A DNA stretch of 64,000 nt from Variovorax paradoxus. Its GTDB lineage: Bacteria; Pseudomonadota; Gammaproteobacteria; Burkholderiales; Burkholderiaceae_C. The stretch is taken from positions 1,860,001-1,924,000 of the forward strand of contig CP063166.1 in assembly GCA_016806145.1 (NCBI GenBank). The letters are read 5' to 3'. Below are positions 40,102 through 58,405 of the stretch, piece by piece; the first letter of the stretch is position 1, and each line of letters begins with the position of its first letter. The translations under genes and the position numbers were made by a program. A model generated the notes under the pieces. It did not search any database and was not told the origin of the DNA. It saw only the letters and a program-made list of their open reading frames with translations.

Positions 40102-40213
40102 GTCGACCCCACGAGGGGCGGCGCGGCTCTTGCTTGCCGACCGGCGAAAGCCGGACGGCGGGTCGAACACCGCGCCGCATGCCCTCCAGCCCCAAGTTTC
40201 CGGAGAAAAGAAG

Positions 40214-42920: not shown

Positions 42921-43784
42921 TCAGAGCGCCGGCGGGCGGTTCGGGCTCAGGTACTGCGTGCCCCTGAGTTCCATCGCCGCGCCCGCGGGACCACCCACCG
43001 CATTCGGCAGCGAGGTCATGAGCGAGGTCGCGAAGTCGCCGCGATAGAGCTTCGCGCCCTGATGCGTGAGGTTGGAGTTGGCGTCGATGTGGATCGCCTC
43101 GCCCAGGCCCGACCAGAGGCGGCAGAAGCCGTAGTCCTCCGAGAGGTAGCGGCGCGTCACGGGGTCGACCATCACGTCGAAGAAACGGTAGTGCAGGCCG
43201 AGGTCGGCCTCGCCGATGCTGTCGGGCACGTAGCTGAGCTCGGGGTAGCTTGCCATCAGCCGCTCGAACACGCCGCGCTTGATCGCCATGAAGCCCGTGG
43301 GCGCCTCGGTCATCTTCATGAAGCCGTCGGGCTGGACCTCGAGCTCGACCTTGCCGCTGGCTTCCGAGGCGCCCGCGTTGACGGTGTAGCGCGTGAAGGT
43401 GGCGTCGAACTGCGCGCGCGTGGTGCCGGCCGCGACGCCTTCTTGCGGCCAGTCCTCGCGCTTGAGCGGATAGACGCCGGCCGCGATGTCGTGGTCCGAG
43501 AGCAGCAGCCGGAACGCCGCTTGCGCCGAGAAGCCGATGTCGGCGTCGATCCAGAACAGGTGGGTCCATTCCGGGTTGGCGAGGAACTGTGCCACGCAGT
43601 TGTTGCGCGCCCGGGTCACGAGGCTTTCGCCCTGGTGGAACAGCACCTGCATCCGCATGCCGGCGCGCTCGGCCTCGATCGCGAAGTTCATCATCGACAT
43701 CACGTAGTTCTGGAAGAACTTGCCGTCGTGGCTCGGCGTGACGACCACGGGGAAGAAGCGTTGGAGAGCTGAGGGTTCGAGCAT
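42921..43784 (-). CDS. Putative GT-A glycosyltransferase in adhesin island
   Basis: The 287-residue protein begins VVVTPSHDGKFFQNYVMSM, a typical N-terminal strand of GT-A enzymes. It carries the metal/sugar-nucleotide motif HLFWIDADIGF with DAD at residues 80-82. ARNNCVAQFLANPEWTHLFW and EAPTGFMAIKRGVFERLM resemble Anp1-type or other family-2-like transferases. There is no signal peptide or membrane helix, so it acts in the cytoplasm. It follows the DUF2827-family gene by 11 bases and forms a two-gene operon divergent from the giant adhesin. Attachment of sugar to the adhesin before export is the inferred role; donor and acceptor are unknown. Confidence 0.75.
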   Translation of the reverse strand: MLEPSALQRFFPVVVTPSHDGKFFQNYVMSMMNFAIEAERAGMRMQVLFHQGESLVTRARNNCVAQFLANPEWTHLFWIDADIGFSAQAAFRLLLSDHDIAAGVYPLKREDWPQEGVAAGTTRAQFDATFTRYTVNAGASEASGKVELEVQPDGFMKMTEAPTGFMAIKRGVFERLMASYPELSYVPDSIGEADLGLHYRFFDVMVDPVTRRYLSEDYGFCRLWSGLGEAIHIDANSNLTHQGAKLYRGDFATSLMTSLPNAVGGPAGAAMELRGTQYLSPNRPPAL

Positions 43785-43795
43785 GGCGGCTCCGG

Positions 43796-44932
43796 TTATC
43801 GGGCGGGGCGCTGCATCAGGCCGAGCAGCAACGTGTTGTACACCTCGGTGGCGGCCGCGCTGCCGGGCAGGTAGCGCGCGATGAGGCCGCGCTGGCGCTC
43901 GCGGTAGGCGAGCGACTGCGCATCGTGCGCGTCGATCGCCTCGAGCACGCGCGCGCTGCCCGCGGCCACGTCGTTGTCCGGGTAGTAATAGCCGAGGTCC
44001 GCGCAGAGATGGGCGTTGTGCACCAGCGGATAGCCCTGCCAGCAGGTCTCGAGGTAGAAGTAGTTGAGCGGGTTCTCCCACTGGTGCGAGATCACGATGT
44101 CGGTGTTCTGCGCCAGGAAGGTCGGCGTGTCGTGCCGGCCCAGGAACACGGCCTTGTGCTCGCGCACCAGGTCGAGCTGGTTCATCAGCGTGATGAACTC
44201 CATGTTCTCGCGCGCCATCTTCTCGGCGTTGGCCACCTGCAGCAGCGCGATCGCCTCGGGCCGCGCGCGGTGGGCCAGTTCGGCGACCAGGATCGGGTAG
44301 AGGCAGAACTTCACCACGTTGATGTTCGGCTCCATCACGCTGAGGCGCCGCGGGCCGACGCGCGGCTGGTAGAGGCCGTCCTCGGGCAGCCCGCGCGTGC
44401 GTTCCTCGAGGAACACCGGACTCCAGACGAAGGGCACGGCGCGCGCCTCGATCCGGCGCAGCACCTCGAAGTAGGGCTGGCTGATGCGCGCCACCTGCGG
44501 AACCATCCAGATGTCGTCGTAGCGCTGGTTGACGAACAGGTTGCGGCCCCACAGCGGCTTGTCGAACAGCATCGACTCCATCGCATGCACGTACTCGAAG
44601 CCGCAGCAGTACGACACCAGCCGCGCGCCGCGCTGCTTGAGGTAGTCGGTCTGCAGCGCGTCGATCTGGCCGCCGAGCTCGATCAGCACGTCGACCTCGT
44701 CCTTGGCGCCCTCGAAGTTGGTCGTGGGCCAGCGCGCCTGGTCCCAGGGCAGGGCCGGCGTGATCGGCGTGGCCGTGGTGTTGACCAGCACCACCGAGGC
44801 CACGCCCGGGCAGTGCTTGAGCGCCTCGGCCAGGAACACGGCGTTCTGCTTGATGCCGTTGTTCCAGAGGGTTTCGGCTTCGTGGTGAAGACCGATGGTG
44901 ATGCCGATGCGCAGGGAGCTGTTTGAATTCAC
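43796..44932 (-). CDS. DUF2827-family protein, copy 1 (GT-B-like)
   Basis: The 378-residue protein starts RIGITIGLHHEAETLWNNGI and shares three signatures with two paralogues at 55.5-57.8 kb. These are FVWSPVFLEER, VMEPNINVVKFCLYPILVAE and, near residue 285, HQWENPLNYFYLETCWQGYP followed by LVHNAHLCADLGYYYP. The last resembles the C-terminal donor-binding segment of GT-B glycosyltransferases (Glu, short helix, then GxPLV). Family assignment to DUF2827, known mainly from Burkholderia-type bacteria, is from memory of the motif pattern. It is the first gene of a two-gene unit divergent from the adhesin. Protein O-glycosylation is an inference. Confidence 0.78.
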   Translation of the reverse strand: MNSNSSLRIGITIGLHHEAETLWNNGIKQNAVFLAEALKHCPGVASVVLVNTTATPITPALPWDQARWPTTNFEGAKDEVDVLIELGGQIDALQTDYLKQRGARLVSYCCGFEYVHAMESMLFDKPLWGRNLFVNQRYDDIWMVPQVARISQPYFEVLRRIEARAVPFVWSPVFLEERTRGLPEDGLYQPRVGPRRLSVMEPNINVVKFCLYPILVAELAHRARPEAIALLQVANAEKMARENMEFITLMNQLDLVREHKAVFLGRHDTPTFLAQNTDIVISHQWENPLNYFYLETCWQGYPLVHNAHLCADLGYYYPDNDVAAGSARVLEAIDAHDAQSLAYRERQRGLIARYLPGSAAATEVYNTLLLGLMQRPAR

Positions 44933-44986
44933 TTTTGTTATTTAATTGTTAACTGACGCCATGCCCGGCTTGGGTCGAGAAATAGA

Positions 44987-45012
44987 TCACGGATGAATAA
45001 ATTGATCCGTGA
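44987..45012. promoter_or_regulatory. Inverted repeat upstream of DUF2827 copy 1
   Basis: Perfect 8-bp arms TCACGGAT and ATCCGTGA are separated by 10 bases (GAATAAATTG). The site lies 55 bases upstream of the DUF2827 copy 1 start and about 435 bases upstream of the adhesin start. Its size and spacing suit a dimeric repressor or activator site. Confidence 0.5.
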
Positions 45013-45256
45013 ACAAGTTCCATCTTTGGGGCGTATCGAGCGCGCTTTTCACCCACTGCCCGCTACCAGTCTTCATGCCATTCAATGTGAATAAATTCCG
45101 CATCGTCGAGGAAAAAGTCTTTGTAAAACAAGGGCTTGTGTTGAGGCGAAAGACTTCTCCAAGGGCTGGCGAGATTCTATGTTTTCGGCGCTTCTGCCAC
45201 CTTTGGGAGACAATTGTTAATCAATGTGGATGCTAATTTTTGCGTGTTTTTTGTGA

Positions 45257-45289
45257 ACTAAATCATCGAAGCTTTTTGAGTGATTTAGT
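45257..45289. promoter_or_regulatory. Inverted repeat upstream of the giant adhesin
   Basis: Perfect 9-bp arms ACTAAATCA and TGATTTAGT have a 15-base centre that includes AAGCTTTTTGAG. The repeat sits about 160 bases before the adhesin ATG in the most AT-rich part of the spacer. It may be a protein-binding site or an RNA hairpin in a long leader. Confidence 0.5.
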
Positions 45290-45446
45290 GCACTTCGTTC
45301 TGAATGTAAACAAGTATGTACATTCCACCGCTCTTGTGAACAGCGCGGTGATTGGGATCTCGACGACGAGTGCCAAGCACGACCCTTCCCATTTTTCCAA
45401 GGACCTCGCGCGCCGGTCCTGAGATTCCACACGCAGTTGGCAGTCA

Positions 45447-48400
45447 ATGAATAAGTCATACAGAAGTATCTGGAACGAGTCACTTGGCGCCTGGGTGGCC
45501 GCTTCGGAAATCACTTCCGCCCGGGGCAAGCGCAGCAGCTCGGCTGCGGTGATCTCGGGTGCCGTGCTGAGCGTCGCCCTCGCGTCCTTCGGCTTGATGG
45601 GGAGCGCGAACGCCTACATCGTCGGACCGCCGAACGGCGCCTGCAACACGGGCGCGAACACCGGTCCCGACGGCAAGGCCTACCCGGCGACGGTCGACCC
45701 GGTCGACGGTTCCGGCGTGTACTCGACCGTGGTCGGCGGCTGCTCGGCCAACGGCGGCGGCTTCCTGGGCGTCACGATGTTCGGGTCGTTCACGACCGCG
45801 CGCGGCAAGGGCTCCAGCATGTTCGGCATGGGATCGACGGCCGGGCAGTACGCCTCGGCCTTCGGCCTCCAGGCCAACGCCTTCGGCATCGCCAGCATCG
45901 CGATGGGCCAGAACGCCCTTGCGGCGAGCAACAACAACATCGCGATCGGCGCGGGCGCGAACGCGGCGGCGATCAGCGCGGGCACGGCCATCGCGATCGG
46001 TGCCAACGCCGTCGCCTCGTCCAGCACCACGGTCGGGGATTCGCTGGCCATCGGCACCGGCGCCAAGGCCACGGCGCAGGACGCGGTGGCGATCGGCGGC
46101 CAGGCCAACGCGAGCGGCACCAACGCCCTGGCCATCGGTGGCAACGACGGTGGCGCGAGCGGCACCAATTCGTCGGCCATCGGCGTGGGCTCCAACGCAA
46201 CCAGCAACTACGCGACGGCGGTGGGCGCCGGCGCGACCGCGAGCGGCACCGGCGCGACGGCCATCGGCGCCAGCAGCACCGCCGCGGCGCGCGCGCTGGG
46301 CAACAACTCGGTGGCGATCGGGGGCCAGGCCGTCGTCGGCAGCGCGGCCGATGCGGGCATCGCGATCGGCCTCAATGCCAATGCGCAGTCGAATGCCACC
46401 CTGGCCCTGGGAAGCGGTGCCAGCGTGGGAGCCGGCGCGGATTCGGGCATCGCCATCGGCGCGAATGCGAGCGCGACCAACAAGACGAACAACCTGGCGG
46501 TCGGTGCCGGCGCCAAGGCGAACGGCGGCGGCGCGACGGCCATCGGCGCCGGCGCCAATGCCGCCTTCGGCAACGACATGGCCTTCGGCACGAACGCGAT
46601 GGCCCGCGGCGATGCGAGTTCGCTGGCGCCTTCCACGGCCTTCGGCAACAACGCCAACGCCTGGGGCGGCAGTTCCACGGCGTTTGGCGTGTTCGCACAG
46701 GCCTGGGGCAAGACTTCGGTGGCCTTCGGCTATTCCTCGAACGCCGGCGCGGAGAACGCCCTGGCGGTCGGCACCCTGGCGAACGCCTACGGCAATCGCA
46801 GCACCGCCATCGGCGCGGGGGCCACGGCCACCGGCGATTTCTCCTCGGCCCTGGGCCGCACGGCGAGCGCTACCGCCGCCGGCGCCCTGGCACTCGGAAC
46901 GAATTCCGTCGGCGGCGCATCTGCCGCCGCAGCCGATGCGATCGCCATCGGCGGCCAGTCCAGCGTCGTCGCGGCGGCAACCTCGGGCATCGCGCTCGGT
47001 CGCGGCGCGATCGTCAACGGTGCCTTCGGCATTGCCCAGGGCGATGGCGTCGTCAGTGGCGCCACGGGGCAGAACGTCGCCATCGGTGCGTCGGGCACGA
47101 CCGCGAACGCCGGCACGGCCGCGGGTGGCGCGGTGGCCATCGGTCGCGGCCAGAAGGCCACGGGCGACGGCGCGGTCGCCATCGGCGATCCCAATGTCTC
47201 GAACGGCACCGGCGCCGTGACGATGGGTGCCAACAACACCGCCGCCGGCAGCCTGGACGGCGCGACCGCGGCGAGCGGCGTGGTGGCCATCGGCAATGCC
47301 AACAATGCGATCGGGCAGGGTTCGGTCGCGCTGGGCAACAAGTCCAGCGCCAGCGCCGCCGGCACGCTCGCCGTCGGCGACGCGGCCAGCGCATCGGCCG
47401 CCAATGCCATCGGTGTCGGCACCGGCGCGAACGCCGCGGCCGCGGCCGCCGTCGCCATCGGGCAAAGCGCGCTGGCCTCGGGCAACGCCAGCGTCGCGCT
47501 GGGCTCGGGTGCGCGCTCGATCGCCGACGGCGCCATCGCGATCGGCAAGAACGCCGCCATCGGCTCGAACACCGACGTCAACGCCATCGCGATCGGCACC
47601 AACGCGAACAGCTGGGGCGGCAGCATCGCTCTGGGCACCGGTGCGTCCGCCGATCAGATCGGCACCTCGGCCCAGAACGCCTCGATCGCGATCGGCGGCA
47701 ATGCCACGACCGATGACCGCACGACCCGCAGCATCGCGATCGGCAACGGCGCCGTCGTCAAGTCGGCCGACCTGTCGGTCACCGACGCCGCCATCGCCTT
47801 CGGCGCCAACGCCGTGGCGCTGGGCTCGAACGCCGTGTCGATGGGCACGGGTGCCAACGCCGCCTACGCCAGCAGCGTCGCGCTGGGCGCGGGCAGCGTG
47901 ACGGGCGCCAAGGGTCCGACCGGCACCGGCTTCCTGACGGGCACCGCCGCCCCCGCCTCCGAAGTCTCGGTGGGCTCGTCGTCCGCCCTGCGGCGCATCA
48001 CCAATGTCGCCGACGGCGCGGCGCTGCAGGACGCCGTGACGGTGGCGCAGCTGAGCACGGGCATGAGCACGACGGCCAGCAGCATCGGCAGCCTGTCGAC
48101 GTCGACCTCGACGGGGTTGAGCACGGCCACGAGCAGCATCGGAAGCCTCTCCTCGGGGCTGAGCACGACGAACAGCCGGGTGTCGAGCTTGTCGACGTCG
48201 ACCTCGACGGGGCTGAGCACGGCGGCCAGCAGCATCGGCAGCTTGTCCACGTCGACCTCTACGGGGCTGAGCACAGCAACCAGCTCGATCGGTAGTCTCT
48301 CCACGTCGACGTCCACGGGATTGAGCACGGCCACGAGCAGCATCGGCAGCCTGTCGTCGGGCTTGAGCACGACGAACAGCAGCGTTTCGAGCTTGTCGAC

Positions 48401-51400
48401 CTCGACGTCGACGGGGCTGAGCACAGCCACCAGTTCGATCGGCAGCCTCTCCACCTCGACTTCCACGGGTTTGAGCACGACGAACAGCAGCGTGTCGAGC
48501 CTGTCCACGTCGACGTCGACGGGGTTGAGCACCGCGACCAGTTCCATCGGTAGCCTCTCGACTTCGACTTCGACCGGCTTGAGCACCGCCACGAGCAGCA
48601 TCGGTAGTCTGTCGACGTCGACCTCCACTGGCTTGAGCACGGCAAACAGCCGCATCGATGGCCTGTCGACCGGACTGAGCACCACGACCAGCAGCATAGG
48701 CAGTCTGTCATCGGGCTTGAGTACGACGAACAGCAGTGTGTCGAGCTTGTCGACCTCCAGTTCCACCGGGTTAAGCACGGCCACGAGTTCGATCGGCAGC
48801 CTGTCGACCTCCACGTCCACGGGCTTGAGCACCGCCACGAGCAGCATCGGTAGCTTGTCCACCTCGACCTCGACAGGTCTGAGCACCGCAACCAGCTCGA
48901 TCGGCAGCCTCTCGACTTCGACGTCCACGGGTCTGAGTACCGCGACGAGCAGTATCGGTAGCTTGTCCACGTCGACCTCGACAGGCCTCAGCACCGCAAC
49001 GAGTTCCATCGGCAGCTTGTCGACCTCCGCGTCGACGGGGCTGAGCACCGCAACCAGCTCGATTGGCAGCTTGTCTTCGGGTCTGAGCACGACGAACAGC
49101 AGTGTGTCGAGCCTGTCGACGTCGACCTCCACGGGTCTGAGCACGGCTACGAGCAGCATCGGCAGCCTGTCCACATCGACGTCGACCGGCTTGAGCACGG
49201 CGACCAGCAGCATCGGCAGCCTCTCGACTTCGACGTCGACTGGCCTGAGCACGGCAACGAGTTCGATCGGCAGCTTGTCGACCTCGACCTCGACGGGCCT
49301 GAGCACTGCGACCAGCTCGATCGGCAGCCTTTCGACCTCGACCTCCACGGGTCTGAGCACGGCGAACAGCCGCATCGATGGCCTGTCGACCGGACTGAGC
49401 ACCACAACGAGCAGCATCGGCAGTCTGTCGTCGGGCCTGAGCACGACGAACAGCAGCGTGTCGAGCTTGTCGACTTCCAGCTCCACCGGCTTGAGCACTG
49501 CAACGAGCTCCATCGGCAGCCTCTCGACGTCGACGTCCACGGGCTTGAGCACTGCGACCAGCAGCATCGGCAGCCTGTCGACCTCCACCTCGACGGGTCT
49601 GAGCACCGCCACCAGCTCGATCGACAGCCTTTCGACATCGACTTCGACGGGCCTGAGCACGGCAACGAGCAGCATTGGCAGCCTCTCGACCTCGACGTCG
49701 ACTGGCTTGAGCACGGCCACGAGTTCCATCAGCAGCCTGTCGACTTCGACCTCCACGGGTCTGAGCACCGCGACGAGCAGTATCGGCAGCTTGTCCACGT
49801 CGACCTCGACAGGCCTGAGCACTGCGACCAGCTCGATCGGCAGTCTGTCGACCTCGACGTCCACGGGTCTCAGCACCGCAGCGAGTTCCATCGGCAGCCT
49901 CTCGACCTCCACCTCGACCGGTCTGAGCACTGCAACGAGTTCCATCGTTAGCTTGTCCACCTCGACCTCCACGGGCCTGAGCACCGCGACCAGCAGCATC
50001 GACAGCCTTTCGACCTCGACATCGACCGGGCTGAGCACTGCGACGAGTTCGATTGGCAGCCTGTCCACGTCGACTTCGACGGGTTTGAGCACGGCGACCA
50101 GCAGCATCGACAGTCTCTCGACTTCCACGTCGACCGGCCTGAGCACCGCGACGAGCTCCATTGGCAGCTTGTCCACGTCGACCTCCACGGGTCTGAGCAC
50201 GGCGACCAGCAGCATCGGTAGCTTGTCGACCTCGACATCGACCGGGTTGAGCACGGCAACGAGCTCGATCGGCAGTCTGTCTACGTCCACTTCGACGGGT
50301 CTGAGTACGGCGACCAGCAGCATCGGCAGCCTCTCGACTTCGACGTCCACCGGCTTGAGCACGGCAACGAGCTCCATCGGCAGCTTGTCGACCTCGACCT
50401 CCACGGGTTTGAGCACTGCCACCAGCAGCATTGGCAGCCTTTCGACCTCGGCGTCCACCGGCTTGAGCACAGCAACGAGCTCTATTGACAGTCTGTCGAC
50501 TTCCACCTCGACCGGGTTGAGCACGGCGACAAGCTCGATCGGCAGCTTGTCGACGTCGACCTCGACGGGCCTGAGCACGGCAACGAGTTCGATCGGCAGC
50601 CTGTCCACCTCGACCTCTACGGGTCTGAGCACCGCGACGAGCAGCATCGACAGCTTGTCGACCTCGACGTCGACTGGTCTGAGTACGGCAACGAGCTCGA
50701 TTGGCAGCCTGTCTACATCGACGTCGACCGGCTTGAGCACGGCGACCAGCAGCATCGACAGCCTGTCGACTTCGACGTCGACCGGTCTGAGCACTGCGAC
50801 GAGCTCCATCGGTAGCCTGTCCACCTCCACCTCCACGGGCCTGAGCACGGCGACCAGCAGTATCGACAGCCTGTCGACCTCGACCTCCACTGGCTTGAGC
50901 ACCGCGACGAGTTCGATCGGCAGCCTCTCGACCTCCACGTCGACTGGTCTGAGCACGGCAACGAGCTCTATCGACAGCCTGTCGACTTCGACCTCCACGG
51001 GTTTGAGCACCGCGACCAGTTCGATCAGTAGCCTGTCCACGTCCACGTCGACCGGTCTGAGCACGGCGACCAGCAGCATCGGTAGCTTGTCGACCTCCAC
51101 GTCGACCGGATTGAGCACGGCGACAAGCTCCATCGGCAGCTTGTCGACGTCGACCTCGACGGGCTTGAGCACGGCCACGAGTTCCATCGGTAGCCTGTCC
51201 ACCTCGACCTCCACGGGTCTGAGCACCGCGACCAGCAGTATCGACAGCTTGTCGACCTCGACGTCGACCGGCTTGAGCACGGCGACGAGTTCGATCGGTA
51301 GCCTGTCCACGTCGACTTCGACGGGTCTGAGCACCGCGACGAGCAGCATCTATAGCCTGTCGACCTCCACGTCGACCGGCTTGAGCACGGCAACGAGTTC

Positions 51401-54400
51401 GATCGGCAGCCTGTCCACATCGACGTCGACCGGCTTGAGCACCGCGACGAGCAGCATCGATAGCCTGTCGACCTCGACGTCGACTGGCTTGAGCACGGCA
51501 ACGAGTTCGATCGGCAGCCTGTCTACATCGACGTCGACCGGCTTGAGCACGGCGACGAGCAGCATCGGCAGTTTGTCGACCTCCACGTCGACGGGGCTTA
51601 GCACTGCGACAAGCTCCATCGGTAGCCTGTCCACCTCGACCTCCACGGGCCTGAGCACCGCGACCAGCAGTATCGACAGCTTGTCGACCTCGACGTCGAC
51701 TGGCCTCAGCACTGCAACGAGCTCCATTGGCAGCCTGTCGACGTCGACCTCGACAGGTCTGAGCACCGCGACCAGCAGCATCGACAGCTTGTCAACATCG
51801 ACTTCGACTGGCCTCAGCACGGCAACTAGCTCGATCGGCAGCCTGTCGACCTCCACGTCGACGGGTCTAAGCACCGCGACGAGCAGCATCGGCAGCCTGT
51901 CCACTTCGACGTCAACTGGCCTCAGTACGGCCGCGAGCAGCATTGGCAGCCTCTCGACCTCTACGTCCACTGGCTTGAGCACGGCGACGAGTTCGATCGG
52001 CAGCCTCTCGACCTCCACGTCGACTGGACTGAGTACGGCAACGAGCTCTATCGACAGCCTGTCGACTTCGACCTCCACGGGGTTGAGCACGGCAACGAGC
52101 TCGATCGGCAGCCTGTCGACTTCCACGTCGACCGGTCTGAGCACCGCGACGAGCAGCATCGATAGCCTGTCGACTTCGACGTCGACTGGCTTGAGCACGG
52201 CAACGAGCTCCATCGGTAGCCTCTCGACGTCGACCTCGACAGGTCTGAGCACGGCAACAAGCTCCATCGGCAGCCTGTCGACCTCCACGTCGACGGGTCT
52301 GAGCACCGCCACGAGCAGCATTGGCAGCCTGTCGACGTCTACGTCGACCGGTTTGAGCACAGCAACGAGTTCGATCGGCAGCCTATCCACGTCGACCTCG
52401 ACGGGCCTGAGCACCGCAACCAGCAGCATCGATAGCCTGTCGACGTCCACGTCGACCGGTTTGAGCACGGCAACGAGCTCGATCGGCAGCCTGTCCACCT
52501 CGACTTCGACGGGCCTGAGCACCGCGACCAGCAGCATCGACAGCCTGTCAACTTCGACCTCGACTGGCTTGAGCACGGCCACCAGCGGCATCGACAGCCT
52601 GTCGACCTCGACATCGACGGGCCTGAGCACCGCCACGAGCTCGATTGGCAGCCTGTCCACATCGACGTCGACCGGCTTGAGCACGGCGACCAGCAGCATC
52701 GACAGCCTCTCGACTTCGACGTCGACCGGCCTGAGCACGGCAACGAGCTCGATCGGTAGCCTGTCCACATCGACATCGACCGGCCTGAGCACCGCCACCA
52801 GCGCTATCGGTAGCCTGTCGACTTCGACCTCAACGGGCTTGAGCACTGCGACGAGTTCTATCGGCAGCCTCTCGACCTCGACGTCTACCGGCCTCAGCAC
52901 GGCGACGAGTTCGATCGGTAGCTTGTCCACCTCGACCTCGACAGGCCTGAGCACCGCCACGAGCAGCATCGATAGCCTGTCCACGTCCACTTCGACGGGC
53001 CTGAGCACAGCGACCAGCAGCATCGGCAGCCTCTCGACCTCGACGTCCACCGGCTTGAGTACGGCCACGAGCTCCATCGGCAGCTTGTCGACTTCGACCT
53101 CCACGGGTCTGAGCACCGCGACCAGCAGCATCGGCAGCCTCTCGACCTCCACCTCGACCGGTTTGAGCACAGCGACAAGCTCCATAGGTAGTTTGTCCAC
53201 CTCAACCTCCACGGGTCTGAGCACTGCAACGAGCAGCATCGACAGTCTCTCGACCTCGACGTCTACTGGCCTCAGCACGGCAACGAGCTCCATCGGCAGC
53301 TTGTCGACCTCGACGTCGACTGGCCTGAGCACTGCGACAAGTTCGATTGGCAGCCTGTCCACATCAACCTCGACCGGTCTGAGCACGGCTACGAGCAGCA
53401 TCGGCAGCCTCTCGACCTCGACGTCGACCGGCCTCAGCACGGCGACGAGTTCGATCGGCAGCTTGTCCACGTCTACCTCGACGGGCCTGAGCACCGCCAC
53501 GAGCAGCATCGGCAGCCTTTCGACTTCCACGTCGACTGGCTTGAGCACGGCCACGAGCTCCATTGGTAGCTTGTCGACTTCGACCTCCACGGGCCTGAGC
53601 ACCGCGACCAGCAGCATCGGCAGCCTGTCAACCTCGACCTCCACGGGTCTGAGCACCGCGACGAGCAACATCGACAGCCTCTCGACCTCGACCTCGACCG
53701 GCCTGAGCACGGCGACCAGCTCCATCGGCAGCCTGTCCGTCGGCCTGAGCACCGTGAGCAGCGGCATCGGCAGCCTGTCGATCGGCCTGAGCACGACGAA
53801 CAGCACCGTGAGCAGCCTGTCGACATCCACCTCGAGCGGGCTGAGCACGGCGACGAGCAGCATCAACAGCCTGTCGACATCCACCTCGAGCGGCCTGAGC
53901 ACGGCAACGAGCAGCATCAACAGCCTGTCGACGTCCACCTCGAGCGGCCTTAGCACGGCAACGAGCAGCATCAACAGCCTGTCGACATCCACGTCGAGCG
54001 GGCTGAGCACGGCGACCAGCAGCATCAACAGCCTGTCGACCTCCACCTCGACCGGTCTGAGCACGGCCACGAGCAGCATCGGCAGCCTGTCGACCGGCCT
54101 GAGCACCGCGACCAGCAATATCGGCAGCCTGTCGTCGGGCCTGAGCACGACGAACAGCAACGTCTCCAGCCTGTCGACCTCGACCTCGACCGGCCTGAGT
54201 ACCGTCACCAGCGGCCTCGGCAGCCTGTCGAGCGGGCTGAGCACGACGAACAGCAACCTCAGCAGCCTGTCGACGAGCATCAGCGGGTCGGTCAGCGGCA
54301 TCGGCAGCCTGTCGACGGGGTTGAGCACCACCAACAGCACCGTCACCAACATCTACAACAACGGCACGAAGTACTTCCACGCCAATTCGACGGCAGGCGA

Positions 54401-55397
54401 CTCGCAGGCCATCGGCCAGGAGTCGGTGGCGATCGGACCGCAATCGGTCGCGAGCGGCGCGAACTCCTTCGCCGCGGGCAACGGCGCGAAGGCGACGGCC
54501 GACGGCGCGGTGGCGGTGGGCTTCGGGGCGCAGGCCACGGGCACCAACGCGATCGCGATCGGTACCGGGGCACTGGCCACCGGCTCGCAGGCGATCGGTG
54601 CGGACTCGCGCGCCGGCAACGGCGGCGTGGCCCTGGGCGACAGGGCGGATGCGGGCGGCACGGTGGCGAGCCAGGTGCCGAACGTCTCCAAGGGCACGGC
54701 CATCGGCTTCGGCGCGGTGGTCCAGCAGACCGGCGGCGTGGCCCTGGGCTCGGGCTCGAAGTCGACCACGGGCGCGGGCGTGGCCGGCTACGTGCCAGGC
54801 AGCGCCAACGCGGCGCAGGAGGCGGCGATCAAGGCCACCACCAGCACGCAGGGCGCGGTGTCGGTGGGCGATGCGGCCAATGGCCAGTTCCGCCAGATCA
54901 CCGGCGTGGCCGCGGGCTCGGCCGACAGCGACGCCACCAACGTGGCGCAGCTCAAGGCGGCGTCGGCGGCATCGAAGGCCAGCAGCGTGCAGTACGACAC
55001 CAACCCCGACGGGTCGGTCAACTACAACCAGATCACGCTGGGCGCCGGCCAGGCGCCGGGCGGCACGCGCATCGGCAACGTGGCGCCGGGCATCCTGCCG
55101 GGCGACGCGGTCAACGTGCAGCAGTTGAACGACGTGCGCAACCAGATCGGCGACGTGGCGCGCGTCGCCTACTCGGGCACGGCGATGGCGTTCGCGATGT
55201 CGGGCACCTACCTGCCGACGCTCTACCCGGGCGAGAAGACCGTGGGCGTGGGCCTGGGCAGCTACAAGGGCTACAGCGCGGTGGCGCTGACCTTCAAGGC
55301 GCTGTCGGACGACGGCAAGATGTCGTGGGGCGCGGGCCTCTCGACCACGGGCAAGGAATGGGGCATCAACGCCGGCATCGGCTGGAAGTGGAAGTAG
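45447..55397 (+). CDS. Giant trimeric autotransporter adhesin (type Vc, YadA-like)
   Basis: The 3,316-residue protein has an ESPR signal (SIWNESLGAWVAASE, hydrophobic part to about residue 55). A YadA-type left-handed beta-roll head covers ~120-818 (repeats such as NALAIGGNDG, TAIAIGANAVA, GAVAIGD) and a neck ~840-870 (RRITNVADGAALQDAVTVAQ). A stalk of ~2,100 residues (to ~2965) is built mainly from the 18-mer GLSTATSSIGSLSTSTST. A second head (~2970-3140), neck (ITGVAAGSADSDATNVAQL) and YadA anchor follow, ending GINAGIGWKWK. Such proteins trimerise and mediate adhesion or autoagglutination. The stalk is about two-thirds Ser/Thr, an obvious O-glycosylation target given the flanking transferase-like genes. 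A terminator follows 31 bases after the stop. Confidence 0.95.
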   Translation: MNKSYRSIWNESLGAWVAASEITSARGKRSSSAAVISGAVLSVALASFGLMGSANAYIVGPPNGACNTGANTGPDGKAYPATVDPVDGSGVYSTVVGGCSANGGGFLGVTMFGSFTTARGKGSSMFGMGSTAGQYASAFGLQANAFGIASIAMGQNALAASNNNIAIGAGANAAAISAGTAIAIGANAVASSSTTVGDSLAIGTGAKATAQDAVAIGGQANASGTNALAIGGNDGGASGTNSSAIGVGSNATSNYATAVGAGATASGTGATAIGASSTAAARALGNNSVAIGGQAVVGSAADAGIAIGLNANAQSNATLALGSGASVGAGADSGIAIGANASATNKTNNLAVGAGAKANGGGATAIGAGANAAFGNDMAFGTNAMARGDASSLAPSTAFGNNANAWGGSSTAFGVFAQAWGKTSVAFGYSSNAGAENALAVGTLANAYGNRSTAIGAGATATGDFSSALGRTASATAAGALALGTNSVGGASAAAADAIAIGGQSSVVAAATSGIALGRGAIVNGAFGIAQGDGVVSGATGQNVAIGASGTTANAGTAAGGAVAIGRGQKATGDGAVAIGDPNVSNGTGAVTMGANNTAAGSLDGATAASGVVAIGNANNAIGQGSVALGNKSSASAAGTLAVGDAASASAANAIGVGTGANAAAAAAVAIGQSALASGNASVALGSGARSIADGAIAIGKNAAIGSNTDVNAIAIGTNANSWGGSIALGTGASADQIGTSAQNASIAIGGNATTDDRTTRSIAIGNGAVVKSADLSVTDAAIAFGANAVALGSNAVSMGTGANAAYASSVALGAGSVTGAKGPTGTGFLTGTAAPASEVSVGSSSALRRITNVADGAALQDAVTVAQLSTGMSTTASSIGSLSTSTSTGLSTATSSIGSLSSGLSTTNSRVSSLSTSTSTGLSTAASSIGSLSTSTSTGLSTATSSIGSLSTSTSTGLSTATSSIGSLSSGLSTTNSSVSSLSTSTSTGLSTATSSIGSLSTSTSTGLSTTNSSVSSLSTSTSTGLSTATSSIGSLSTSTSTGLSTATSSIGSLSTSTSTGLSTANSRIDGLSTGLSTTTSSIGSLSSGLSTTNSSVSSLSTSSSTGLSTATSSIGSLSTSTSTGLSTATSSIGSLSTSTSTGLSTATSSIGSLSTSTSTGLSTATSSIGSLSTSTSTGLSTATSSIGSLSTSASTGLSTATSSIGSLSSGLSTTNSSVSSLSTSTSTGLSTATSSIGSLSTSTSTGLSTATSSIGSLSTSTSTGLSTATSSIGSLSTSTSTGLSTATSSIGSLSTSTSTGLSTANSRIDGLSTGLSTTTSSIGSLSSGLSTTNSSVSSLSTSSSTGLSTATSSIGSLSTSTSTGLSTATSSIGSLSTSTSTGLSTATSSIDSLSTSTSTGLSTATSSIGSLSTSTSTGLSTATSSISSLSTSTSTGLSTATSSIGSLSTSTSTGLSTATSSIGSLSTSTSTGLSTAASSIGSLSTSTSTGLSTATSSIVSLSTSTSTGLSTATSSIDSLSTSTSTGLSTATSSIGSLSTSTSTGLSTATSSIDSLSTSTSTGLSTATSSIGSLSTSTSTGLSTATSSIGSLSTSTSTGLSTATSSIGSLSTSTSTGLSTATSSIGSLSTSTSTGLSTATSSIGSLSTSTSTGLSTATSSIGSLSTSASTGLSTATSSIDSLSTSTSTGLSTATSSIGSLSTSTSTGLSTATSSIGSLSTSTSTGLSTATSSIDSLSTSTSTGLSTATSSIGSLSTSTSTGLSTATSSIDSLSTSTSTGLSTATSSIGSLSTSTSTGLSTATSSIDSLSTSTSTGLSTATSSIGSLSTSTSTGLSTATSSIDSLSTSTSTGLSTATSSISSLSTSTSTGLSTATSSIGSLSTSTSTGLSTATSSIGSLSTSTSTGLSTATSSIGSLSTSTSTGLSTATSSIDSLSTSTSTGLSTATSSIGSLSTSTSTGLSTATSSIYSLSTSTSTGLSTATSSIGSLSTSTSTGLSTATSSIDSLSTSTSTGLSTATSSIGSLSTSTSTGLSTATSSIGSLSTSTSTGLSTATSSIGSLSTSTSTGLSTATSSIDSLSTSTSTGLSTATSSIGSLSTSTSTGLSTATSSIDSLSTSTSTGLSTATSSIGSLSTSTSTGLSTATSSIGSLSTSTSTGLSTAASSIGSLSTSTSTGLSTATSSIGSLSTSTSTGLSTATSSIDSLSTSTSTGLSTATSSIGSLSTSTSTGLSTATSSIDSLSTSTSTGLSTATSSIGSLSTSTSTGLSTATSSIGSLSTSTSTGLSTATSSIGSLSTSTSTGLSTATSSIGSLSTSTSTGLSTATSSIDSLSTSTSTGLSTATSSIGSLSTSTSTGLSTATSSIDSLSTSTSTGLSTATSGIDSLSTSTSTGLSTATSSIGSLSTSTSTGLSTATSSIDSLSTSTSTGLSTATSSIGSLSTSTSTGLSTATSAIGSLSTSTSTGLSTATSSIGSLSTSTSTGLSTATSSIGSLSTSTSTGLSTATSSIDSLSTSTSTGLSTATSSIGSLSTSTSTGLSTATSSIGSLSTSTSTGLSTATSSIGSLSTSTSTGLSTATSSIGSLSTSTSTGLSTATSSIDSLSTSTSTGLSTATSSIGSLSTSTSTGLSTATSSIGSLSTSTSTGLSTATSSIGSLSTSTSTGLSTATSSIGSLSTSTSTGLSTATSSIGSLSTSTSTGLSTATSSIGSLSTSTSTGLSTATSSIGSLSTSTSTGLSTATSNIDSLSTSTSTGLSTATSSIGSLSVGLSTVSSGIGSLSIGLSTTNSTVSSLSTSTSSGLSTATSSINSLSTSTSSGLSTATSSINSLSTSTSSGLSTATSSINSLSTSTSSGLSTATSSINSLSTSTSTGLSTATSSIGSLSTGLSTATSNIGSLSSGLSTTNSNVSSLSTSTSTGLSTVTSGLGSLSSGLSTTNSNLSSLSTSISGSVSGIGSLSTGLSTTNSTVTNIYNNGTKYFHANSTAGDSQAIGQESVAIGPQSVASGANSFAAGNGAKATADGAVAVGFGAQATGTNAIAIGTGALATGSQAIGADSRAGNGGVALGDRADAGGTVASQVPNVSKGTAIGFGAVVQQTGGVALGSGSKSTTGAGVAGYVPGSANAAQEAAIKATTSTQGAVSVGDAANGQFRQITGVAAGSADSDATNVAQLKAASAASKASSVQYDTNPDGSVNYNQITLGAGQAPGGTRIGNVAPGILPGDAVNVQQLNDVRNQIGDVARVAYSGTAMAFAMSGTYLPTLYPGEKTVGVGLGSYKGYSAVALTFKALSDDGKMSWGAGLSTTGKEWGINAGIGWKWK
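45815..47900 (+). repeat. YadA-type head repeats
   Basis: This region has tandem degenerate 14-16-residue repeats with the core A-(I/V)-A-I-G-x2-A-x-A, e.g. NNIAIGAGANAAAI, DAVAIGGQANASG and NSVAIGGQAVVGSA. They form the left-handed beta-roll of TAA heads, usually the host- or surface-binding part. The unit length is uneven, with occasional insertions of 5-10 residues. Confidence 0.85.
48632..49491 (+). repeat. 720-bp segmental duplication inside the stalk
   Basis: The block around GLSTANSRIDGLSTGLSTTT plus GLSTTNSSVSSLSTSSSTG at 48632-48771 recurs at 49352-49491, offset by exactly 720 bp (240 residues). The rare RIDG motif occurs only in these two blocks. The copies differ at scattered synonymous sites, so the duplication is not very recent. 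Confidence 0.8.
53820..54035 (+). repeat. Four near-identical 54-bp units (INSL type)
   Basis: Units at 53820-53873, 53874-53927, 53928-53981 and 53982-54035 encode STSTSSGLSTATSSINSL with only a few base differences. They are much more alike than the main array units, which suggests recent amplification. They lie close to the C-terminal end of the stalk. Confidence 0.85.
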
Positions 55398-55428
55398 GCC
55401 ACAGGGAGAGAAAAAAGCCCCATGGGAA

Positions 55429-55464
55429 GGCTCCCGCGCCAGGGGTGCGGGAGCCCCCTTTTTT
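55429..55464 (+). terminator. Intrinsic terminator of the giant adhesin
   Basis: A 9-bp stem GGCTCCCGC/GCGGGAGCC (55429-55437 with 55447-55455) has a 9-base loop and is followed by CCC and six T residues. Six A residues (55411-55416) precede the stem. It separates the adhesin from the downstream DUF2827 pair, whose first ATG is only 19 bases further on. Read-through or a promoter inside the 3' end of the adhesin must therefore supply those genes. Confidence 0.85.
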
Positions 55465-55482
55465 GAGGGACACTCATCGTCC

Positions 55483-56628
55483 ATGCGCATCGGTATCTCG
55501 GTCCTCACCCACGCCGGCCAGAACATCTGGGAGAACGGCATGGGGCAGAACGTGCTGTTCCTGGCCCGGCTGCTGCAGCAGATCCCCTTCGTCGAATCGG
55601 TCACGCTGATCGACGCGGGCGACCAGTCGGCGATGCCGCCGCAGGTCGACCTCGCGGCGCGCGGGCTCGCGATCGGCCGGGCGCGCGAGCTCACCGATGC
55701 GCTCGACGTGGTGTTCGAGATGGCGGGCGCGCTCGAGGTCTCGTGGCTGTCGTACTTCCGCGCGCGCGGCGGGCGCGTGGTGTTCCATTGCGTGGGCCAG
55801 CCCTTCGTGTCGCTGGCCGAGCCGATCGTGTTCTCCGACAAGGGCCACTTCAGCCGGCCCGACCGCTGCGACGAGGTCTGGCTGCTGCCCAAGGACGAAA
55901 CCTTCGCGCCGATGATGCGCGTGTACAACCGCTGCCCGGTGAACGTGGTGCCCTACCTCTGGTCCCCCGAGTTCCTCGCGCAGCGCGTGGCCGAGGTCGA
56001 GGCGGCGGGTTTCCGCTTCGGCTACGCGCCGCGCACGGCCGAGCAGCCGGGCTTGCGGGTCGCGATCTTCGAGCCCAACATCTCGGTGGTGAAGGCCGGC
56101 ACCCTGCCGATGCTGATCTGCGACGGCGCCTACCGCGCCGACCCGAAGGCGGTGAACTGGATGCATGCGCTCAACACGCTGCACATGAAGGACCACCCGA
56201 CCATGCTCTATCTCGCGAACTCGCTCGACATCGTGCGCGAGCACAAGGCGATCTTCCATGGCCGGAACGACTTCGCGGGCTTCATGGTGCAGCATGCCGA
56301 CGCGGTGGTCTCGCACCAGTGGCAGAACGACCAGAACTACAGCTACCTCGACGCGCTCTACGGCAACTACCCGCTGGTGCACAACTCGCCCTGGCTGCGC
56401 GACGCGGGCTACTACTACCCGGGCTTCGAGGTCGGCGCGGGCGTCGAGCAGCTGCTGAACGCGGCGCGCCATCACGATGGGCAACTCGACGACTACAGGG
56501 CGCGCTCGCAACGCGTGTTCGACGCGCTCGATCCGCTGGCGCGCGCCAATGTCGAGGGCTATGCGCAGCGGCTGCTGCAGCTCGTGGGCGGCGACGCGAG
56601 CTTCCGCGTCGGAGGTGCCGCGCGATGA
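55483..56628 (+). CDS. DUF2827-family protein, copy 2 (GT-B-like)
   Basis: The 381-residue paralogue of copy 1 starts RIGISVLTHAGQNIWENGMG. It shares YLWSPEFLAQR, IFEPNISVVKAGTLPMLICD and, from residue 278, HQWQNDQNYSYLDALYGNYP followed by LVHNSPWLRDAGYYYP. It has no signal peptide. It starts 19 bases after the adhesin terminator and overlaps copy 3 by four bases (ATGA). The three copies are clearly divergent, suggesting different donors or acceptors, such as successive sugars of one glycan. A transferase function is inferred. Confidence 0.78.
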   Translation: MRIGISVLTHAGQNIWENGMGQNVLFLARLLQQIPFVESVTLIDAGDQSAMPPQVDLAARGLAIGRARELTDALDVVFEMAGALEVSWLSYFRARGGRVVFHCVGQPFVSLAEPIVFSDKGHFSRPDRCDEVWLLPKDETFAPMMRVYNRCPVNVVPYLWSPEFLAQRVAEVEAAGFRFGYAPRTAEQPGLRVAIFEPNISVVKAGTLPMLICDGAYRADPKAVNWMHALNTLHMKDHPTMLYLANSLDIVREHKAIFHGRNDFAGFMVQHADAVVSHQWQNDQNYSYLDALYGNYPLVHNSPWLRDAGYYYPGFEVGAGVEQLLNAARHHDGQLDDYRARSQRVFDALDPLARANVEGYAQRLLQLVGGDASFRVGGAAR

Positions 56629-57755
56629 ACGCCATGCCCGACAAGCTGCGCGTCGGCGTCTCGATCTTCATCCGCAAGGGCGAGCAGAGCCTGTGGGAGA
56701 ACGGCGTCTACCAGAACTGCCTGTTCCTCGTGATGCTGCTGCTGCGCTCGCCGCGCGTGGCCAGCACGGTGCTCGTGGCCGGCGGCGGCGACGGCGCGCC
56801 GGCCGATGCGGCCGGCTTCCTGGCCGATTCGCCGGTGCCGATCGTCGACATGGCGACCGCCGCGCAGGAACTCGACGTGATGATCGAGATGAGCGCCCAG
56901 CTCGGGCGCGACTGGGCCGTGGCCTTCCGCGAACGCGGCGGCAAGATCGTGTCGATGCGCGTGGGCAACGACTACGTGATCGACATCGAGCGCATGATCT
57001 TCGACAAGCCGCATGGCCTGCTGCTGACGCTCGCGCCCTACCACGAGGTCTGGACGCTGCCCGAGTACGAGGCCACCTGCAAACCCTATTTCGAGGCCGC
57101 GTTCCGCACGCCGGTGCGCCTGATGCCGCACCTGTGGAGCCCGATGGTGCTCGAGCGCGCCCTGGCGCGCAGCGGCGGCGGCAAGCCCTTCGCCTACGAG
57201 CCCGGACGCCGGCACTGGCGCGTGGCGATCTTCGAGCCCAACATCTGCATGGTGAAGACCAGCTTCATCCCGATGCTGGGCTGCGAGGCGGCGCACCGCG
57301 CGCAGCCCGACCTGATCGAGCGCCTGTGGGTCTACAACAGCTTCCACCTGCGCGAGAAGCCGCAGTTCGTCGGCTTCGCCCAGAGCCTGGACCTGGTGCA
57401 GCACGGGCTGGCCTCGTTCGAGGGGCGCTTCCCGGTCTACCAGGTGGTGCCGCCCAACGTCGACTGCGTGTTCGCGCACCACTGGGAGAACGGCCAGAAC
57501 TACCTCTACTACGAGGCGCTGTACGGCGGCTATCCGCTGGTGCACAACTCGCACCTGATCGGCGACTGCGGCTACCGCTACCAGGGCTTCGACTGCGAGG
57601 AGGGCGGCCGCGCGCTGCGGCGCGCCTTCGCCGAGCACGACGCCGACCTGCCCGGCTACCGCGAGCGCGCGCGGGCGCTGCTCGAGCGGCTCGATCCCGA
57701 GGGCGAGGAGAACGTGCGCATCTACACCGCCGCGATCGAGGCGCTCTACGCCTGA
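56625..57755 (+). CDS. DUF2827-family protein, copy 3 (GT-B-like)
   Basis: The 376-residue paralogue starts LRVGVSIFIRKGEQSLWENG. It shares HLWSPMVLERA, IFEPNICMVKTSFIPMLGCE and HHWENGQNYLYYEALYGGYP (HHWEN at 285-289) followed by LVHNSHLIGDCGYRYQ. Its ATG overlaps the copy 2 stop, so the two are translationally coupled. The next gene, for a small secreted protein, starts 26 bases after its stop, forming a likely three-gene unit downstream of the adhesin. Confidence 0.78.
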   Translation: MNAMPDKLRVGVSIFIRKGEQSLWENGVYQNCLFLVMLLLRSPRVASTVLVAGGGDGAPADAAGFLADSPVPIVDMATAAQELDVMIEMSAQLGRDWAVAFRERGGKIVSMRVGNDYVIDIERMIFDKPHGLLLTLAPYHEVWTLPEYEATCKPYFEAAFRTPVRLMPHLWSPMVLERALARSGGGKPFAYEPGRRHWRVAIFEPNICMVKTSFIPMLGCEAAHRAQPDLIERLWVYNSFHLREKPQFVGFAQSLDLVQHGLASFEGRFPVYQVVPPNVDCVFAHHWENGQNYLYYEALYGGYPLVHNSHLIGDCGYRYQGFDCEEGGRALRRAFAEHDADLPGYRERARALLERLDPEGEENVRIYTAAIEALYA

Positions 57756-57781
57756 ACGCGGCCGACTTCGGAACGACCCCC

Positions 57782-58405
57782 ATGACCCCGACATCGCTTC
57801 TCCTTCGTCTGCTGCCGTGCGCCGCGGCCTGCACCCTGACGGCCACCGCCTTCGCGCAGGGCGTGCTCGTGCCCCAGGCACCGCCCGCGCCGCCGCAGGA
57901 CGTGCTGACGCGCGCGGCCACCAGCGTGGGCGTGAAGCGCTGCCTGCCGGCGATCACGCGGCTGTCCTCGCTGACCGTGCAGGGCAGTCGCAGCCACGAC
58001 GTGTTGCTCGACTGGGACCGCAAGCGCCCCGACAGCGGCCCGGTGTTCTCGCTGATCGGCATCGAGTTCCCGAATGCGGGCGTGGCGGGCTCGATCACCG
58101 CGATCCCCGACGACAGCGGCGCCTGCACCGTGGCGGCCGAACGCATCTCGGTGGCACCCTTCACCTGCGCGAGCATCGCCCAGCAGGAGCTGCCGAACTA
58201 CCGCGCGACCAGGCTGCTGCCGGTCTACACGGTCTACACCGACGACAAGGAGCCGACCTCGTCGGTGTCGCTGATCGATTCGCCGCCGGGCTGCCTCGTG
58301 ATCCGGCGCTATGTCGAATACGGCTGGCGCGAGCCGACTGCCGCGGCAGCGGCCCCGGCGGCCGCGCCCGCACCGGCCGCGCAGCAGGCACCGAAGCGGC
58401 GCTGA
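57782..58405 (+). CDS. Secreted protein of unknown function with four cysteines
   Basis: The 207-residue protein has a signal peptide (LLLRLLPCAAACTLTATAFA, cleavage after AFAQ or AFA near residue 25). The mature domain is about 150 residues with four Cys (in VKRCLPAI, SGACTVAA, FTCASI and PGCLVI) that could form two disulfides. An Ala/Pro-rich tail ends it. No family was recognised. It follows DUF2827 copy 3 by 26 bases on the same strand. It may be a periplasmic accessory of the adhesin locus or an unrelated passenger. Confidence 0.7.
   Translation: MTPTSLLLRLLPCAAACTLTATAFAQGVLVPQAPPAPPQDVLTRAATSVGVKRCLPAITRLSSLTVQGSRSHDVLLDWDRKRPDSGPVFSLIGIEFPNAGVAGSITAIPDDSGACTVAAERISVAPFTCASIAQQELPNYRATRLLPVYTVYTDDKEPTSSVSLIDSPPGCLVIRRYVEYGWREPTAAAAAPAAAPAPAAQQAPKRR

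Follow-up and report, generated by a model that had tools for sequence, protein, structure and literature searches.

DUF2827 genes as candidate stalk glycosyltransferases beside a giant trimeric autotransporter adhesin of Variovorax paradoxus

The locus and its adhesin

We analysed a 64,000-nucleotide stretch of Variovorax paradoxus DNA (contig CP063166.1, positions 1,860,001 to 1,924,000; hereafter the window) from contig 1 of a 9.4 Mb genome, in which the gene of a giant trimeric autotransporter adhesin (TAA) stands among three genes of the unstudied family DUF2827. The block lies between acnB and the acyl-CoA dehydrogenase and aconitase genes, where a sequence-only reading had placed it, and runs from a gene resembling GT-A-type glycosyltransferases (GTs) and DUF2827 copy 1, both on the minus strand, to the TAA, DUF2827 copies 2 and 3 and a gene for a 207-aa protein on the plus strand (Table 1). 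Each DUF2827 copy matched PF10933 across 361-362 of its 362 positions, above the curated cut-off, which bears out the TAA as bracketed by a GT-A-like gene and three DUF2827 genes. We call the DUF2827 genes and the small genes that accompany them the kit. The open reading frame (ORF) at 56477-58405, earlier listed as the last of the block, was rejected as a single gene; its real part encodes the 207-aa protein. By contig search, the closest named loci are from Variovorax, with 85-89% protein identity. A Wzy_C O-antigen ligase gene is found some 1.8 kb from the genome's fourth DUF2827 gene (L142:8670-9791).

Judged by its sequence, the 3,316-aa protein is a type Vc autotransporter with a signal peptide carrying ESPR, a coiled stalk and an anchor: profile scans found ESPR (PF13018, 1.4e-16) and YadA_stalk (PF05662), and YadA_anchor (PF03895, 9.4e-12) covers its final 100 aa. 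The earlier estimate of a stalk that is about two-thirds Ser/Thr held on counting, with 1,357 Ser+Thr among the 2,076 residues from 882 to 2957 (65.4%). In its commonest form the 18-residue stalk repeat carries 12 hydroxyl residues. The stalk is without Lys, Glu, Gln, Pro, Trp, Phe, Cys and His and contains one Tyr; with only 19 Asn, it would be a poor target for N-glycans. The periods of its Leu, Ile, Val and Met residues (9.0, 3.6, 2.57 and 3.0) are all fractions of 18, and we infer a nearly straight 18-residue (7+11) coiled coil.

The 17-mer SLSTSTSTGLSTATSSI occurs in 87 exact copies, encoded by 86 different 51-nt sequences. Third positions of these coding copies are 54% identical, and overall nucleotide identity is 81% versus the 67% expected with independent codons, which points to copies of common descent that have diverged at silent sites. 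That 87 identical peptides persist in 86 DNA versions suggests that the peptide is maintained by selection. All 26 matches of the genome to SLST repeats, the signature of this stalk, fall in this one of its four TAAs. An even longer DUF2827-adjacent TAA ORF, of 6,194 aa and 55% Ser+Thr, was seen in L125 (genome G196).

Table 1. Features of the block and its flanks, in window coordinates
Feature	Position	Strand	Details
acnB	40130-42799		upstream flank of block
GT-A-like protein, 287 aa, WIDADIGF (DxD-like) motif; putative accessory sugar transferase	42921..43784	-	inside longer ORF 42921-44552
DUF2827 copy 1 (clade 1)	43796..44932	-	PF10933 5.1e-142
Giant TAA, 3,316 aa	45447..55397	+	ESPR, YadA_stalk, YadA_anchor
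Ser/Thr-rich SLST stalk, residues 882-2957, 18-residue repeat; likely acceptor	48090..54317	+	65.4% Ser+Thr
DUF2827 copy 2 (clade 2)	55483..56628	+	PF10933 2.1e-120; 85 bp 3' of TAA stop codon
DUF2827 copy 3 (clade 3)	56625..57755	+	PF10933 8.3e-138; 4-bp overlap with copy 2
207-aa protein, signal-like N-terminus, four invariant Cys; probable periplasmic helper (role inferred)	57782..58405	+
Acyl-CoA dehydrogenase gene	58544-60829		downstream flank of block
Aconitase A/IRP1-like gene	from 62337		open at window end

DUF2827 genes and Ser/Thr-rich stalks in other genomes

Conservation of the kit was followed in 80 bacterial loci (L009-L088), the best 80 of 120 relatives from one contig scan and hence near relatives. 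The arrangement of a TAA with three neighbouring DUF2827 genes is seen again in Variovorax, Paraburkholderia, Caballeronia, Polaromonas and Snodgrassella and so is not one of chance, and the gene order of the kit varies between genera. In 65 of the 80 loci, DUF2827 has a TAA signature no more than 3.5 kb away. Among the remaining 15, a TAA is found at 4.1-5.8 kb in four (L031, L035, L062 and L087), an SLST TAA at 2.6 kb was missed by the anchor profile in L082, and L020 and L058 lie near contig ends. Stretches of 200 residues with at least 50% Ser/Thr were present in 48 of 67 TAA ORFs from these loci, many of them cut by contig ends.

In a tree of 260 DUF2827 sequences, copies 1, 2 and 3 fell into clades of 99, 80 and 77 members (support 0.84, 0.98 and 1.0), with four sequences outside them; some loci are represented twice, the 99 sequences of clade 1 coming from 96 loci. 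The tree, like the counts of TPR neighbours below, uses named and same-genus loci that include repeats (at least seven of L123-L142 repeat L016, L019, L022, L023, L025, L026 and L027), and counts out of 80 use L009-L088 only. Exactly one member of each clade is present in 50 of the 80 loci, one extra copy in 4, two copies in 3 and copy 1 alone in 23, as expected if the end of a contig or a long TAA comes between the copies. The triplication thus seems, from this tree, to have come before these genera diverged, and this speaks for a distinct task of each copy.

The neighbours of the kit change with the clade. The GT-A-like gene, a putative accessory of the kit, was found in 18 of the 80 loci, all labelled Variovorax. 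Its product has phage relatives (29-35% identical among those listed, one annotated as a putative glycosyltransferase) and matches PHROG 1574, of unknown function; it had no Pfam or NCBIfam family at E<=1 and no significant PDB match, and its WIDADI aligns with the DAD of a GT34-like profile (P 0.013). Five Paraburkholderia/Burkholderia loci carry a GT34-like gene near the kit, with PF05637 in all five at E<=0.5 (best 1.7e-12) and a PDB match to 2p6w, a PBCV-1 glycosyltransferase (6e-6). Thirteen ORFs of a TPR family lie within 7 kb of DUF2827 in 10 loci; the C-terminal parts of 9 of the 11 tested matched PF01075 (GT9) at E<=0.5, the best at 6.7e-7 and most of them weakly (one at 0.18, below the cut-off). 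That these neighbours vary by clade and are repeatedly transferase-like points to glycosyl transfer.

Three further families may help in export or anchoring. The 207-aa protein is present in 21 of the 80 loci and has four invariant Cys (alignment A2, 20 sequences), with no Pfam or NCBIfam family at E<=1 and no significant PDB relative in a profile search; a secreted family occurs in 14 loci (DUF4019 in the member tested) and a lipoprotein family in 10 (OmpA-type in the member tested). DUF2827 was also found on 18 Burkholderia plasmid records. The plasmids L205, L206 and L207 combine TPR genes and two or three DUF2827 genes with YadA-type genes and a gene of the OmpA family, and in L206 type VI secretion genes come after these.

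The association was next scored by genome, with SLST repeats judged on the best candidates per genome only. Of the 61 genomes in the genus sample, 28 matched DUF2827, among them G194 and G198 through fragments and G169 through a single copy; YadA anchors were found in 54 and SLST stalks in 23. Every one of the 23 SLST-positive genomes had a DUF2827 match, and all 33 DUF2827-negative genomes were SLST-negative; among TAA-positive genomes, SLST stalks occurred in 23 of 27 with DUF2827 versus 0 of 27 without (Fisher 3e-11). In the order sample (150 genomes) DUF2827 was present in three and SLST in two, both among those three, and in the family of G007 (116 genomes) in six, one by a fragment, with SLST in four, all among those six. 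Pooled, 27 of the 35 genomes that match DUF2827 had SLST stalks, one of the 27 (G194) with DUF2827 fragments only, versus 0 of the 290 entries that do not match it (Fisher ~1e-32); because the sampled genomes are related, these P values overstate the evidence. G000 and G007 were counted once; at least G007, G056, G101 and G141 are common to the order and family samples, and the 290 entries include at least three repeats. The sequence-only reading had named a random distribution of DUF2827 with respect to TAA genes as what would speak against it; the comparison came out the opposite way, both in the 65 of 80 loci and in the restriction of SLST stalks to genomes with a DUF2827 match.

In G194 (L208:6711-8600) and G198 (L209:7081-8034), two DUF2827 C-terminal fragments, both starting at about profile position 296, face each other with no TAA between them. 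Those of G194 lie between the GT-A-like and 207-aa protein genes, and the fragments are remnants of the kit.

Within the genus, at least 60% Ser/Thr over 200 aa was reached by 16 of 17 kit-adjacent TAA ORFs versus 3 of 19 non-adjacent ones, or 4 of 20 once L159, which has no ESPR or anchor match and was left out of the first count, had been restored; the TAAs were picked by hand from the anchor matches listed, with long ORFs favoured, and several linked ORFs are cut by contig ends or stops. Four loci (L137, L139, L141 and L142) had no adjacent TAA ORF to score. The four non-adjacent Ser/Thr-rich TAAs come from G187, G194 and G207, each of which has a DUF2827 match, in keeping with an action in trans. 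The idea of a locus dedicated to a single adhesin is thus too narrow, since SLST-type TAAs lie far from the kit in the same genomes.

DUF2827 was present in six of the 398 genomes of a phylum sample. Beside our own genome, these include G180, with a kit and adjacent TAA pieces, G007, with a kit and SLST TAAs elsewhere, and G629 and G631, where an SLST-type TAA stands beside the kit and a TPR-GT9-like gene. In G664, of another order, a single DUF2827 gene lies about 140 bp 3' of a 1,796-aa TAA (ESPR 2e-12, anchor 2.5e-17, PDB matches to Hia and other TAAs) whose Ser/Ala-rich repeat is unrelated to SLST.

Relatives of DUF2827 were also retrieved from uncultivated contigs called viral by their collection only (L218-L297; 80 loci kept of 132 relatives, in 46 groups at 90% identity); copy 1 had no match in GenBank phages. 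A coiled, fibre-like ORF family lies at a median of 78 bp from DUF2827 in 50 of these 80 loci and collagen-like genes are nearby in 44; the label 'fibre-like' rests on the repeats and these collagen-like genes, and two members of the viral neighbour families had no Pfam match. An upstream ORF on the same strand was present in 40 of the 46 groups. Seventeen of the 40 share the RSKQI start of the fibre family, and at least five upstream ORFs do not look like fibre genes by eye (those of L218, which is a GT34 gene, L270, L285, L288 and L289). GT genes accompany the viral members as well: 18 of 46 groups have a GT2-like gene (PF00535, 5.5e-7) at a median of 13 bp, and in five loci DUF2827 is adjoined by GT34 genes or by an ORF that combines GT25, GT8 and GT34 domains. 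The motif [SNA][VI][DGSN]S[LIM] is enriched in the upstream ORFs, at 6.6 per 1000 residues versus 0.27 in 519 other ORFs, and 19 of the 40 contain it. We do not claim it as an acceptor: it was chosen after those ORFs had been seen and is absent from the G664 stalk.

DUF2827 as a candidate glycosyltransferase family

A profile search with DUF2827 gave no significant PDB relative, and a Pfam scan of 62 DUF2827 sequences found no GT family and no second Pfam family in number. In hhalign, DUF2827 aligned weakly with a GT4 donor-domain profile over 110 columns in register (score 26.0, P 0.007, probability 5.5%), above 60 column shuffles (mean 11.1, SD 1.5, maximum 15.9). The aligned end resembles a donor site (F.GR..., D.VVSHQWEN..NY.YL.A.Y.GYPL.HN), and a GT-B fold seems likely. 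Alignment to a PF13524-seeded set was not significant (P 0.09-0.25), and that to the TPR-GT9 part (P 0.03-0.05) fell in different places and was uninformative. Residues E85 and E201 are invariant among 62 sequences (alignment A1), and K208, N290, Y291, H305 and N306 are also invariant in a bacterial-plus-viral set of 74 (A6). DUF2827 proteins are probably cytosolic, since no signal-like N-terminus was apparent by eye. The three copies had no BAHT match in NCBIfam at E<=1, a library that we take to include the BAHT model, and general Pfam and NCBIfam scans gave no match to NGT, for which no dedicated profile was run.

Altogether, these results suggest that the DUF2827 proteins act in the cytosol as glycosyltransferases and O-glycosylate trimeric stalks rich in Ser/Thr ahead of their export, a reading to which we give a probability of about 0.7. 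The three DUF2827 proteins, with clade-specific accessory transferases (here the GT-A-like protein), would modify the Ser/Thr hydroxyls of the stalk before or during Sec export of the TAA, which ESPR may slow, and the 207-aa secreted protein would assist the loaded chain in the periplasm. A glycan coat could stiffen, protect and space an otherwise nearly uncharged shaft. The observations cover gene order, domain families, conservation, co-occurrence with SLST stalks and the GT neighbours; catalysis, the cytosolic location, the O-linkage, the sugar, the order in which the three copies act and the helper role belong to the proposed scheme. It is an even call that DUF2827 forms an undescribed family of protein O-glycosyltransferases devoted to trimeric coiled fibres, in which an old three-paralogue set coats SLST-type stalks in Betaproteobacteria, other autotransporters are the targets of single copies and tail-fibre-like proteins those of viral members, so that bacterial adhesins and phage fibres would share one chemistry.

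Several observations weigh against glycosylation of the stalk by DUF2827. The case is made from genes. The GT4 score was equalled by one of 88 ordinary families with the wider profile, over 32 columns, and by two of 88 with the first profile (89 families less the self-family; one decoy is itself a TPR-GT9 protein), and the hydropathy maximum of DUF2827 (1.4-1.75) does not set it apart from the 207-aa secreted protein (1.65). Eight of the 80 loci (L026, L051, L064, L072, L074, L079, L080 and L083) had no TAA or Ser/Thr-rich ORF in the stretch, which reached up to about 10 kb a side. DUF2827 occurs without an SLST match in eight genomes (G169, G170, G184, G198, G204, G113, G264 and G289), and G194 has an SLST TAA with DUF2827 fragments only. 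The adjacent TAA of G170 lacks a Ser/Thr-rich stalk (33%), the single DUF2827 of G169 lies directly 3' of a classical autotransporter (L141:6672-10627; PF03797, PATR) rather than a TAA, and only 13 of 40 viral groups have an upstream ORF that reaches 30% Ser/Thr over 100 aa. For the glycosylation role first proposed, then, the association of DUF2827 with TAAs and SLST stalks and the GT-like neighbours speak in favour, and the weak tie of DUF2827 to GT-B and the standing of the GT-A-like gene as an accessory, seen only in loci labelled Variovorax, leave it partly supported.

DUF2827 proteins might instead serve the long stalk as holdases in the cytosol or as chaperones of its export, or be modifying enzymes other than glycosyltransferases, with the neighbouring GTs making something else. 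Three paralogues kept together could form a hetero-oligomeric chaperone, the Pfam and NCBIfam scans recognised no catalytic family, and one or two ordinary families match the GT-B similarity; we nevertheless consider this unlikely in view of the invariant polar, enzyme-like residues and of neighbours that differ between clades yet are time and again transferase-like. Synthesis of a polysaccharide (lipopolysaccharide (LPS) or capsule) by DUF2827 and the GT genes, with the TAA merely a neighbour, would account for the fourth DUF2827 gene near the O-antigen ligase gene and for G007, G308 and four Collimonas loci, which carry the kit without an adjacent TAA. Such a role is very improbable, because SLST stalks track DUF2827 even when unlinked, adjacency to a TAA recurs across genera, and DUF2827 also follows a classical autotransporter and fibre-like viral genes.

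We give hardly more than marginal credence to co-occurrence by common descent of one mobile or inherited cassette in which stalk type and enzymes are functionally unlinked. The relatedness of the samples and the plasmid records would agree with it, but the SLST TAAs found away from the kit come from genomes that match DUF2827, the genes are ordered differently from one genus to another, and an unrelated Ser-rich stalk accompanies DUF2827 in another order (G664).

If stalk glycosylation by DUF2827 is correct, an unstudied family would gain a function and a further enzyme class would join BAHT and NGT for autotransporters, acting on an 18-residue repeat as its simple acceptor. This would also explain the SLST stalks of Burkholderia adhesins, for which O-glycosylation has so far been suspected only, and adhesin and phage-fibre modification may be linked. 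Because DUF2827 and the stalks co-occur, the idea can be tested directly in a soil bacterium.

Comparison with known systems

Serine-rich repeat adhesins pair Ser-rich repeats with clustered Gtf/GTs, much as the TAA stands beside putative transferases; unlike the Variovorax system, they are Gram-positive and use accessory Sec. EmaA of Aggregatibacter actinomycetemcomitans is, as proposed for the Variovorax protein, a glycosylated TAA, but its glycosylation reportedly depends on the LPS pathway rather than on an enzyme set beside the adhesin. NGT/HMW1C-like proteins are GT41 enzymes with Asn acceptors, whereas the proposed acceptors here are Ser/Thr. With the role proposed for the kit they share the cytosolic modification of type V proteins, TAAs included (HMW1; Kingella and Aggregatibacter TAAs), as described in a review (PMC8151025).

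The review names NGT and BAHT as enzymes of autotransporter glycosylation. In BAHT systems (Aah and TibC, with AIDA-I, TibA and Ag43) the enzyme gene lies beside the autotransporter or acts in trans, the enzyme is cytosolic and the acceptors are Ser/Thr, all as seen or proposed for the kit; an iron-containing dodecamer transfers heptose to these residues (PMC8151025). Unlike the TAA stalks, BAHT acceptors are beta-helix passengers of classical autotransporters, and the DUF2827 copies lack an NCBIfam match of that kind. FlmG, described in PMC7591256 as a TPR plus GT-B flagellin O-glycosyltransferase, shares its architecture with the TPR-GT9-like neighbours in Paraburkholderia and Burkholderia, its substrate being flagellin; the window has no TPR plus GT-B gene between acnB and the acyl-CoA dehydrogenase gene.

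The closest stalks are those of the Burkholderia adhesins BoaA/BoaB and BCAM2418, which carry the same SLST signature (PMC7142374, PMC2955633), and O-glycosylation of the BCAM2418 repeats has already been suggested (PMC7142374). The portions examined of these two papers name no enzyme for it, and the term DUF2827 is absent from both; nor did the portions examined of the literature on glycosylated TAAs, Burkholderia TAAs and SLST repeats turn up an enzyme for O-glycosylation of SLST stalks, and the single paper whose full text was found to mention DUF2827 is a cysteine database. Dedicated cytosolic glycosylation of autotransporters is thus known already, and what may be added here is a candidate for it in the DUF2827 family.

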